The notes below the pieces were generated by a model. It was given only the letters and a program-made list of their open reading frames with translations. It made no database searches and was not told the DNA's origin. 40,924 nt of DNA, from contig JALXCZ010000045.1 of NCBI GenBank assembly GCA_026990595.1, forward strand, positions 1 to 40,924, written 5' to 3'. Source of the DNA: Sulfurovum sp. (lineage in GTDB: Bacteria > Campylobacterota > Campylobacteria > Campylobacterales > Sulfurovaceae). The first letter of the stretch is position 1. Each line of letters starts with the position of its first letter. Below, piece by piece: positions 5,254 through 7,903 of this stretch. The translations under genes were made by a program, and so were the position numbers.

Positions 5254-5270
5254 TTCACATTTTCTTCACA
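5254..5270 (+). promoter_or_regulatory. Direct repeat TTCACA-N5-TTCACA upstream of the first Tat mini-gene
   Basis: Two identical TTCACA hexamers (5254-5259, 5265-5270) lie one helical turn apart, 40 nt before the ATG at 5311. The same arrangement precedes the second Tat mini-gene. Spacing of 11 bp suits an OmpR/PhoB-type response regulator and recalls the TTCAC-N6-TTCAC box described for Campylobacter DccR. Confidence 0.6.
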
Positions 5271-5310
5271 ATTATCCATTATCGTTAAAAAAACAGCAAA
5301 GGAGAATAGT

Positions 5311-5472
5311 ATGAATGTCTATAGAAGAAAGTTTATGCAGTATCTATCAATATTAGGATTTGCAGGTCTCACAGGGGTGTCTCTTCAGGCACAAAGTCTA
5401 AAAAGTATAGAAGAGCCTGAGGTAGTAGAAGGGTACAATGACGATCTCTTTGATCCTGATGGTTGGCTTTAG
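5311..5472 (+). CDS. Tiny Tat-signal protein 1 (53 aa)
   Basis: This 53-residue protein starts at an ATG preceded by AAAGGAG, so the longer frame opening at 5245 is not needed. Residues 5-6 are a twin arginine in YRRKFMQY, followed by a hydrophobic core (about 12-25) and a likely cleavage after LQA. The acidic mature part is only about 25 residues and ends DPDGWL. It may be a small exported partner of a periplasmic enzyme or may act as the Tat escort for another protein; function is unknown. It resembles the mini-protein at 7730 in signal region, size and upstream TTCACA repeat. No downstream gene is on the same strand. Confidence 0.72.
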   Translation: MNVYRRKFMQYLSILGFAGLTGVSLQAQSLKSIEEPEVVEGYNDDLFDPDGWL

Positions 5473-5484
5473 AAAAGTAAACTA

Positions 5485-6342
5485 CTATCTTAAAAGTCTG
5501 TAAAATTCTCCGGGAGCATCTACCTCAAAACATAAAGGTTTTTTGCTTTTAGGATGTACAATGCTCAGTCTTAGGGCATGAAGTCCCATCCTTACCCCTT
5601 TTGTTCCGTAGCGCTCATCACCCACAACACTGTGACCCAGCCACGCCATATGTGCACGTATCTGATGCTGTCTACCTGTCTCTAATTTCACTTCAAGCAA
5701 AGAGCTTTTGGAACTGCTCTGCTTTACGTTGTAGTGTGTTACTGCATGCTTTGCAAGAGGGTGATCCCCTACATGCATACGATACTCTTTTTCATCCAGT
5801 CTTAAAGGCTCACTGATCGTTCTTTTAGATACTTTAGGTGTTCCTTCTACAATAGCAAGGTATGTTTTTTCAGACTCTCCCCAGGTAGCCATCACCGCTT
5901 CTCTCATTTCTTTGGAGGTTGCAAAAAGCAACACCCCAGAGGTCTCTTTGTCAAGTCTATGCACAGGCCAGAGTTTTACACTGTGTTTTGGGCGTGAGAG
6001 TTGTGTACGGAGCAGGGCAAGCGCATGTTGTCTATTCTCTTTTGTCGTACCTACAGAAAGCAGTCCTGCAGGTTTGTTTACAGCAATGAGATCTTTGTCA
6101 TGATAGATGATCTCCAGTTTGTTTGCTGTTTGTCCGGCTGTTGTACTTTTCTGTACCACACCCACTTCTATGATATCACCTTCATTAAGGAGGTAGTCAT
6201 GTTTGGTTGTAACCACACCGTTTACAGCAACAGAAGCACCTTGCAGACGCTGCTTTACTTTCTTCTTCGACCAGCCAGACAGAGAGTCAAAAAGGAATAC
6301 TAAAAGCTTTCCTCTCTCTTTTACAGTGTATCTTTCTGCCAT
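5485..6342 (-). CDS. RluA-family RNA pseudouridine synthase
   Basis: This 285-residue protein has an N-terminal S4-like RNA-binding domain (about 15-70) and a C-terminal pseudouridine synthase domain with the catalytic signature HRLDKETSGVLLFA (about 128-141), where the Asp is the nucleophile. The later GRQHQIRAHMA and GDERYG motifs complete the RluA/RluD family. It isomerises specific uridines in rRNA or tRNA; sequence alone does not pick the site. Its ATG directly abuts the stop codon of the DEAD-box helicase upstream, so the pair forms one RNA-processing operon. Confidence 0.9.
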   Translation of the reverse strand: MAERYTVKERGKLLVFLFDSLSGWSKKKVKQRLQGASVAVNGVVTTKHDYLLNEGDIIEVGVVQKSTTAGQTANKLEIIYHDKDLIAVNKPAGLLSVGTTKENRQHALALLRTQLSRPKHSVKLWPVHRLDKETSGVLLFATSKEMREAVMATWGESEKTYLAIVEGTPKVSKRTISEPLRLDEKEYRMHVGDHPLAKHAVTHYNVKQSSSKSSLLEVKLETGRQHQIRAHMAWLGHSVVGDERYGTKGVRMGLHALRLSIVHPKSKKPLCFEVDAPGEFYRLLR

Positions 6343-7617
6343 TTATGATTTTTTCTTTTTGGACTCTTGTTTTTTCTTTTTCTGTGAAGCGTAGGTGAAT
6401 TTTCTCTTTTTGTCGTAGTCGATATACCCTTTTTTCTCACGCAGTGATTTTTTACGTGGTCTAGCCTGACGAGGCTGCTTATCGGTAATTTCAAAGCCTT
6501 CCATGATTTCACGTTTTACATTGAGTTTAAGGTGTTTTTCTATGGTTGAGAAGTGGTTGTAGTCGTGGATGGTGAGCAGGGTGATGACCTGCCCTTTATG
6601 GTTGGCTCGCCCTGTACGTCCTACACGGTGGGTAAAGTCATCAGTCTGCTCCGGCAGGTCATAGTTGATGACAAGTGGCAGCTCGGGGATGTCTATCCCT
6701 CGTGCTGCCACATCTGTAGCAATGAGTACTTGTGATTTTCCACTCTTAAAAAGAGTCAGTGCCTTGGCTCGTCCGCCACGCTTGATGTCTCCATGAATGA
6801 GTGCTGTCCAGATGCCTTGCTCTTTAAAATACTCAAAAAGTTTATCTGCTGTCTCTTTTTTATTTACAAAAATAAGTACCTGACCTACACCCATATCTTT
6901 TACTAGCTTTGCAGCAAGTTCGGCTTTACGTTTTTTATCTACCTTGTATGCTCTGTGTTTAATGAAGTTTACTACATCACGACGGTTACTCACCTCTACA
7001 ATGACAGGATCACGTAAAAATTCTTTAGCAAGTTTTTTAATGTTTTGAGAGATAGTCGCAGAGAAGCACATCATCTGTTTAGGCTTCGTACAGCTTTTGA
7101 GTATACTTTTTATCTCTGCAAGGAAGCCAAGGTCAAGCATGGTATCGGCTTCATCCAAGATCACTGTATTGACATATTCGAGGTTTATTTTTTTATCGGC
7201 AATGAACTCCTGTAAACGCCCCGGGGTTGCTACTACGATGTCCACACCTTCTTTTAACTTGTGTATCTGGTCTATTTTTTTAGAACCCCCCTGTACTTTG
7301 GCTGTTCTGATATCCATATATCTTGAAAAACCAATGATGGTACGGGAGACTTGGTCTGCAAGCTCAATGGTTGGTACTATAATAAGCGCACGCACCACTT
7401 TTTCATCTTTTTTAACGATTTTCTGAAGCTTGTGAAGCAATGGCAGTACATATGCAGCGGTCTTCCCTGTGCCGGACTTTGATGCACCCAAAATATCAAA
7501 CCCTTTTAGAGCAGGGGGAATGACCTTGTTTTGAATGGCAGTAGCGTTTTCATATTTCTCATGAGCGATGGCTCTTAAAATATCCGGGTGTAAATTTAGT
7601 TTTTCAAATGCTTTGAT
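6343..7617 (-). CDS. DEAD-box RNA helicase, probable ATC start
   Basis: This ATP-dependent RNA helicase shows motif I SKSGTGKT, Ia PTIELA, motif II DEAD in VILDEADTMLDLG, motif III SAT, and motif VI HRVGRTGRA, followed by a Lys/Arg-rich tail. The first conventional start (TTG at 7491) would begin inside motif I and lose the Q-motif region. The open frame upstream encodes the expected N-terminus, with FEKLNL, PDILRAI and TAIQ. It begins after a TAA at 7645-7647 and contains no ATG, GTG or TTG. AAGGA (7628-7624) is 6 nt before ATC at 7617. From there the protein has 424 residues. Confidence 0.88.
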   Translation of the reverse strand: MKAFEKLNLHPDILRAIAHEKYENATAIQNKVIPPALKGFDILGASKSGTGKTAAYVLPLLHKLQKIVKKDEKVVRALIIVPTIELADQVSRTIIGFSRYMDIRTAKVQGGSKKIDQIHKLKEGVDIVVATPGRLQEFIADKKINLEYVNTVILDEADTMLDLGFLAEIKSILKSCTKPKQMMCFSATISQNIKKLAKEFLRDPVIVEVSNRRDVVNFIKHRAYKVDKKRKAELAAKLVKDMGVGQVLIFVNKKETADKLFEYFKEQGIWTALIHGDIKRGGRAKALTLFKSGKSQVLIATDVAARGIDIPELPLVINYDLPEQTDDFTHRVGRTGRANHKGQVITLLTIHDYNHFSTIEKHLKLNVKREIMEGFEITDKQPRQARPRKKSLREKKGYIDYDKKRKFTYASQKKKKQESKKKKS

Positions 7618-7628
7618 GGTGGTTCCTT
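7615..7628 (-). promoter_or_regulatory. Shine-Dalgarno plus ATC initiation codon of the DEAD-box helicase
   Basis: On the minus strand AAGGA (7628-7624) is followed by six bases and ATC (7617-7615), right where homologous helicases start. Only nine sense codons lie between the upstream TAA and this ATC, none of them a standard start. Confidence 0.7.
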
Positions 7629-7670
7629 GATTGTAATAGACGTATTATATCAAAATGTAGATAGATGCAC

Positions 7671-7687
7671 TTCACAATCATTTCACA
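7671..7687 (+). promoter_or_regulatory. Direct repeat TTCACA-N5-TTCACA upstream of the second Tat mini-gene
   Basis: Hexamers at 7671-7676 and 7682-7687 are identical in sequence and spacing to those at 5254-5270, and lie 42 nt before the ATG at 7730. The pair suggests that both Tat mini-genes answer to one regulator. Confidence 0.6.
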
Positions 7688-7729
7688 AATAGATGATACG
7701 TTTTATTATCTTCTCTTCAAGGAATAATA

Positions 7730-7903
7730 ATGATAGACAATGCAAGAAGAAATTTAATGAAATATATGGCACTTTTGGGGATAACAACCATAGTAAGTAT
7801 AGCTGCACCGGTAAGGCTAACGCTAAAAGAACGTAAAGTTCAGTATGATGCAAATAATGCCCGTACTGATAATGGTTATTATGGATTTGGAGAAACCTGG
7901 TAA
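7730..7903 (+). CDS. Tiny Tat-signal protein 2 (57 aa)
   Basis: This 57-residue ORF has an AAGGA Shine-Dalgarno 7 nt before the ATG. The N-terminus has a twin arginine (residues 6-7, ARRNLMKYMALLG) and a hydrophobic core to about residue 26, then a short polar mature part ending GYYGFGETW. It resembles the mini-protein at 5311 (RR, then F/L-M-x-Y, then LG; aromatic C-terminus ending in or near Trp) and has the same upstream TTCACA repeat, so the two are probably paralogues. It sits alone between two minus-strand helicase genes. No function is known. The mature part may be a peptide subunit or docking strand of a periplasmic partner. Confidence 0.7.
   Translation: MIDNARRNLMKYMALLGITTIVSIAAPVRLTLKERKVQYDANNARTDNGYYGFGETW

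Follow-up and report, generated by a model that had tools for sequence, protein, structure and literature searches.

In class II activation of the PhoB type, the regulator box replaces the −35 element and its end lies 10 nt from the −10 element; the half-sites of PhoB and of PmrA (BasR) differ from the sequence TTCAC. Very short proteins consisting mostly of a twin-arginine (Tat) signal are exemplified by formate_TAT (TIGR02811), a tiny protein with a Tat signal that is encoded in formate dehydrogenase regions. The DccRS system of Campylobacter jejuni is said to use a TTCAC-N6-TTCAC box, reportedly described by Wosten et al. in 2010. Its regulon comprises a handful of periplasmic or membrane target proteins (PMC7118207, PMC9449129), and dccR has been reported as a member of its own regulon in C. 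jejuni (PMC7118207).

The window analysed here is the whole stretch of 40,924 nt, contig C45 of a Sulfurovum genome of 2,050,645 bp in 52 contigs. Sulfurovum is a sulfur-oxidising marine bacterium. The first-pass annotation had described two tiny Tat-signal proteins in the window, and these are indeed 53 and 57 aa long, start with RRKFMQY and RRNLMKY signals, respectively, and have predicted mature parts of 24–31 residues. Mini-Tat protein 1 (MNVYRRKFMQYLSILGFAGLTGVSLQAQSLKSIEEPEVVEGYNDDLFDPDGWL) is encoded at positions 5311..5472 and mini-Tat protein 2 at 7730..7903, both on the + strand, as single genes among a pseudouridine synthase gene and two helicase genes in opposite orientation. Since each of the two reading frames runs into a convergent gene, they were not taken to be leader peptides or attenuators.

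Both mini-genes are preceded by the direct repeat TTCACA-N5-TTCACA (5254..5270 and 7671..7687, + strand), and the coordinates bear out the annotated distance of 40–42 nt, which is 40 nt for the ATG at 5311 and 42 nt for the ATG at 7730. The half-sites of the two boxes are identical, while their N5 spacers are unlike (TTTTC versus ATCAT). A −10-like hexamer, TATCGT at 5280..5285 (+) and TACGTT at 7697..7702 (+), lies exactly 10 nt past the second TTCAC, and is followed by the Shine–Dalgarno sequences AAGGAG (5299..5304, +) and AAGGAA (7719..7724, +), as judged by sequence. Both boxes thus match all 13 defined positions of the unit TTCAC-N6-TTCAC-N10-TANNNT, in which an OmpR/PhoB-type direct repeat, a putative operator, stands in place of the −35 element. 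This arrangement resembles the class II promoters of PhoB and PmrA, where a direct repeat with an 11-bp period serves as the −35 element about 10 nt from the −10 element.

In the genome of the window, TTCACA-N5-TTCACA occurs in exactly two perfect copies, both in the window and each before a mini-ORF, so the random placement that would have spoken against the annotated element was not seen. The reversed control pattern likewise occurs twice in the same genome, which makes the count alone uninformative and leaves the position before the mini-ORFs as the informative part. With up to one mismatch, the full unit was found at 13 places versus 11 for the control, which means that most such matches are probably due to chance, and a two-mismatch scan of the genome was uninformative (336 matches versus 299 for the control). 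The one-mismatch boxes include those before lpxC and before the genes of a 104-aa protein, a DUF2202 lipoprotein, an L,D-transpeptidase, and a paralogous response regulator; at these sites the box is shared with other genomes, or the match is promoter-positioned. A box with 9-nt spacing was also observed at the gene of a 161-aa lipoprotein in this genome.

Single-sequence searches of close relatives yielded one homologue of the 5311 protein and none of the 7730 protein, so that both looked almost orphan. This appearance was overturned when a two-row profile was run over the whole order (249 Campylobacterales genomes), followed by an eight-row profile over 399 genomes. The 5311 family contains nine members in nine genomes, its founder and homologues in eight other genomes. 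It extends to four other genera, and the full-length homologues of 51–56 aa detected by the profiles belong to family f6 (four genera). The sequence FDP[DE]GWL-stop forms the exact C-terminal end of 9/9 members, and it is retained while the tail codons vary synonymously; between the 5311 protein and its homologue from a Sulfurovum metagenome-assembled genome (MAG), dN was 0.50 and dS 2.1 (saturated). The 7730 protein ends in GYYGFGETW-stop and has an ortholog with 70% identity in another Sulfurovum genome (G077:C23:7341-7511), which shares this ending, the helicase neighbour, and the box (dN 0.18, dS 0.80). Conservation, on which the earlier reading of the mini-ORFs hinged, is thus found for both, and these comparisons show that the mini-Tat genes are real and under purifying selection. 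The distribution of the two families is patchy (9 and 2 of roughly 450 sampled genomes). Searches of Pfam, NCBIfam, and the PDB assigned neither protein to a family, and searches of viral and plasmid collections yielded no homologues.

The annotation had called the two proteins paralogous. They are alike only over the Tat signal, with 32% identity over 44 aa in a single BLASTP comparison (E=2e-5) and an hhalign alignment confined to residues 2–24. Because the mature tails are unrelated, the proteins are better regarded as two families than as clear paralogs. Most mini-Tat genes of family f6 carry a short inverted repeat in the 5′ UTR (like TGTTC-GNNN-GAACA) just before the ribosome site (loci L177, L178, L180, L181, and L237), which was not seen at the window gene 5311.

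Tat export of the mini-proteins is likely, judged by an invariant twin arginine (9/9 members of the 5311 family and 2/2 of the 7730 family), a hydrophobic stretch, and a cleavage-site-like motif ahead of the tail, which in the 5311 family is a conserved (S/P)LxA that resembles a signal-peptidase site. The Tat-signal model TIGR01409, with a cut-off of 16.7 bits, scored the Sulfurovum MAG homologue at 18.0 and the 5311 protein at 13.6, and did not match the 7730 protein. That both window proteins fall under this cut-off, and that the AlphaFold model consists of one helix (residues 3–22) with a disordered tail (mean pLDDT 66), would also agree with a hydrophobic helix that is preceded by two arginines and stays in the membrane as an anchor instead of being a cleaved Tat signal. 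This alternative is rather unlikely, given the twin arginine in all eleven proteins and the (S/P)LxA motif before the tail. The first-pass annotation considered Tat export of so short a chain odd. According to PMC9436932, Tat quality control on short unfolded chains has so far been examined with synthetic repeats, Richter et al. (2007) assayed whether Tat transports small unstructured hydrophilic substrates, and a later paper describes such repeats as barely exported at native Tat levels. Since small unstructured substrates have been assayed, an unfolded cargo of about 25 residues appears less odd than was thought, although export at native levels was slight. The two families would add predicted natural Tat substrates with a mature part of only 24–31 residues, and such small natural substrates would probe Tat quality control of short unfolded chains.

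The box accompanies the mini-Tat genes across genomes. Upstream DNA was long enough in eight mini-Tat homologues outside the set used to define the box; each of the eight has it (scores of 10–13 of 13), and its end is located 43–61 nt before the ATG. The individual p-values ranged from 5e-5 to 0.011, and the combined value of about 4e-19 is optimistic, because several of the homologues belong to one GTDB family, are related, and have p-values that are not fully independent; their genomic neighbours nevertheless vary from member to member. For the ninth member the contig starts inside the box, and the second half-site and the −10 element are retained. Among 15 control promoters from HiPIP and SoxB genes, which also encode Tat proteins, only one reached 11/13. 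The presence of the box before all eight testable homologues supports the assignment of the mini-Tat genes to a putative box regulon. It also bears on the explanation that the boxes are random matches to an AT-rich pattern, which could appeal to the equal frequency of the reversed pattern in the genome of the window; the position, the spacing, and the cross-genome conservation of the box already refute this explanation, and its probability is close to nil.

When 78 genomes of the same genus were compared, the box followed by an ATG was found at 117 places versus 37 for the reversed control. Sequence was retrieved for almost all of these places, which gave 92 distinct boxes, and 76 of them have TANNNT with the same 10-nt spacing from the second TTCAC as the boxes of the window. 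Among the 69 usable downstream ORFs, which are those with a ribosome site behind boxes having TANNNT, the N-terminus is hydrophobic in 65, as compared to 175/349 background ORFs. The 104-aa exported family accounts for 48 of these 69 ORFs and, as its members share ancestry, represents one case conserved repeatedly and not 48 independent cases; among the remaining 21 ORFs the N-terminus is hydrophobic in 17. Other targets include lipoproteins, cytochromes c, periplasmic proteins, and DUF2202-like proteins, and in related bacteria the box, which is unusually well conserved, precedes dozens of further envelope genes. These data strongly support a predicted regulon of exported proteins under an OmpR-type direct repeat across Campylobacterales. 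The annotation had proposed a regulon of exported mini-proteins, and while a regulon of exported proteins under a repeat spaced by 11 bp stands, most targets are of ordinary size and the mini-proteins are a small fraction of it. The box, its spacing, a probable regulator, and the conserved 104-aa target would define, by sequence, an envelope regulon common to free-living Campylobacterales, where little regulation is mapped. The box or its one-mismatch form was also observed before lpxC, a gene of lipid A biosynthesis, in three Sulfurovum genomes (L064, L068, and L128), hinting that lipid A synthesis belongs to the regulon.

The gene of the 104-aa protein, the commonest and most conserved target, closely follows a regulator/kinase pair of the OmpR type. 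In the genome of the window (G000) it lies on contig C11 (L171:4329-4643), preceded by genes of a response regulator, a histidine kinase, a monoheme c-type protein, and a 106-aa paralog, with the regulator/kinase pair at about 100,640–102,470 of the contig. Homologues of the 104-aa protein occur in 53/80 genomes of the order; they share the pattern KKGQKxYxKKxKAxCGFxGAKFAxKHTQDEW... and have no Pfam or NCBIfam match. In families f1, f4, f6, and f18 the 104-aa gene has an ortholog of the kinase gene as its neighbour, and its box scores are mostly 12–13 of 13; in families f8, f9, f11, f16, f20, and f22 no kinase gene was found beside it, and the best box scores are 7–11. Three tandem half-sites instead of two were observed before the 104-aa gene at L122 (G099) and at L171:4257-4290.

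The C11 pair is likely the regulator of the box, the likeliest among the candidates by this gene linkage. Its response regulator, like that of a paralogous cassette on contig C29 (regulator, kinase, and monoheme protein; L174:2539-4695), has the receiver domain PF00072 and the winged-helix domain PF00486 of the OmpR/PhoB-type architecture. TTCAT/TTCAC-N6-TTCAT repeats are found at regulator promoters of the C29 type, and TTCAT/TTCAC repeats precede the C29 regulator gene in many Sulfurovum genomes, so kinship among the regulators seems to be mirrored in their boxes, which suggests that box specificity co-evolved between the paralogs. As the promoters of the C29 type have mostly TTCAT and not TTCAC half-sites, C29 was rejected as the main regulator and the C11 pair was preferred. 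The best NCBIfam match of the C11 regulator is PmrA, but it scores far under the cut-offs of the PhoB and PmrA families (150 versus 330 bits).

The annotation's proposal of a DccR-like regulator is reasonable for the box and the type of target. The OmpR-family regulator (a candidate in Sulfurovum), the TTCAC-N6-TTCAC repeat (the DccRS motif being taken from the annotation), and the periplasmic or membrane targets are alike in the two systems. On the other hand, the targets in Sulfurovum include mini-Tat peptides and the 104-aa family, and the best candidate showed no sign of autoregulation, since regulator genes of the C11 type (L162–L170) have no box of their own (7–8/13). Hence, it is reasonable to liken the putative regulon to DccRS in its manner of working, by box and target type, but not to assign it to DccRS.

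These observations fit best with a joint model, which we consider quite probable, of a regulator-activated envelope regulon with Tat-exported mini-peptides whose C-terminus serves as a ligand. A phosphorylated response regulator of the OmpR/PhoB/PmrA type would switch on the envelope regulon, including both mini-genes, with a regulator dimer binding to both TTCAC half-sites, which are separated by one turn of the helix. PhoB-like (class II) activation is expected, since the half-sites take up the −35 region and lie 10 nt ahead of the −10 element. The precursors of 53–57 aa would be exported by Tat and then cut by signal peptidase at (S/P)LxA, giving unfolded, mostly acidic periplasmic peptides of 24–31 residues, which may act as regulon-induced signals or modulators and not as enzymes. 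The invariant free C-terminus is the sole conserved feature of the mature peptide, and no cofactor-binding residues are common to all members. For this reason we propose that the C-terminus (FDP[DE]GWL or GYYGFGETW) could be recognized by an envelope partner, e.g., a PDZ-type protease or a sensor domain, although this part of the model is a guess with the odds well against it. Slightly more doubtful still is the idea that the two unrelated micro-peptide families, each defined by its invariant free C-terminus, serve a two-component system of the envelope as secreted signals, recognized through the C-terminus by, for example, a PDZ protease or, as feedback, the kinase itself. If true, this would be the first known case of regulated peptides released into the periplasm via Tat.

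The annotation had instead suggested hitch-hiking or cofactor delivery, in which the peptide brings its Tat signal to a partner without one, as is known for two-subunit Tat enzymes. We dismiss this suggestion as very unlikely: the mini-genes stand alone with no adjoining partner gene, their neighbours are convergent or unrelated and differ between genomes, and the proteins have no metal-binding cysteines and no cysteine cluster. The likeness to formate_TAT is confined to a very short protein that is mostly a Tat signal, as the mini-proteins have another C-terminus, neither matched TIGR02811 at E up to 10, and no formate dehydrogenase genes were found among the neighbours read.

A different origin is conceivable, in which the mini-proteins are eroded high-potential iron-sulfur proteins (HiPIPs): the Tat signal and a vestige of DPNGWC would have been retained, the cluster cysteines would have been lost, and the proteins would now be of little or new function. 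HiPIPs of Campylobacterales (PF01355) have a similar signal, RRxFxxYMSILG...PLxAK (hhalign probability 97.5%, residues 2–32), and I(D/S)PNGWC near the C-terminus, comparable to FDPDGWL; the alignment of the 7730 protein to the HiPIP profile spans 41 columns, and the mature profiles align only over ~DPDGW (46%). However, the Tat signal of SoxB matches the mini-Tat profile nearly equally well (2.5e-6 against 2.8e-8), which makes the signal similarity weak evidence and demotes HiPIP ancestry to an improbable rival of the regulated-peptide model. The mini-Tat proteins also have no Pfam HiPIP match and none of the four cluster cysteines, their only cysteine lying within the G041 member's signal, and their tails are under purifying selection and not decaying. 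The promoters differ as well, as 8/9 HiPIP promoters have no box. The HiPIP genes L182–L184, from a genus of the Sulfurovum family, are located directly upstream of genes resembling NADH dehydrogenase subunits, and in 2/3 genomes they occur in tandem.
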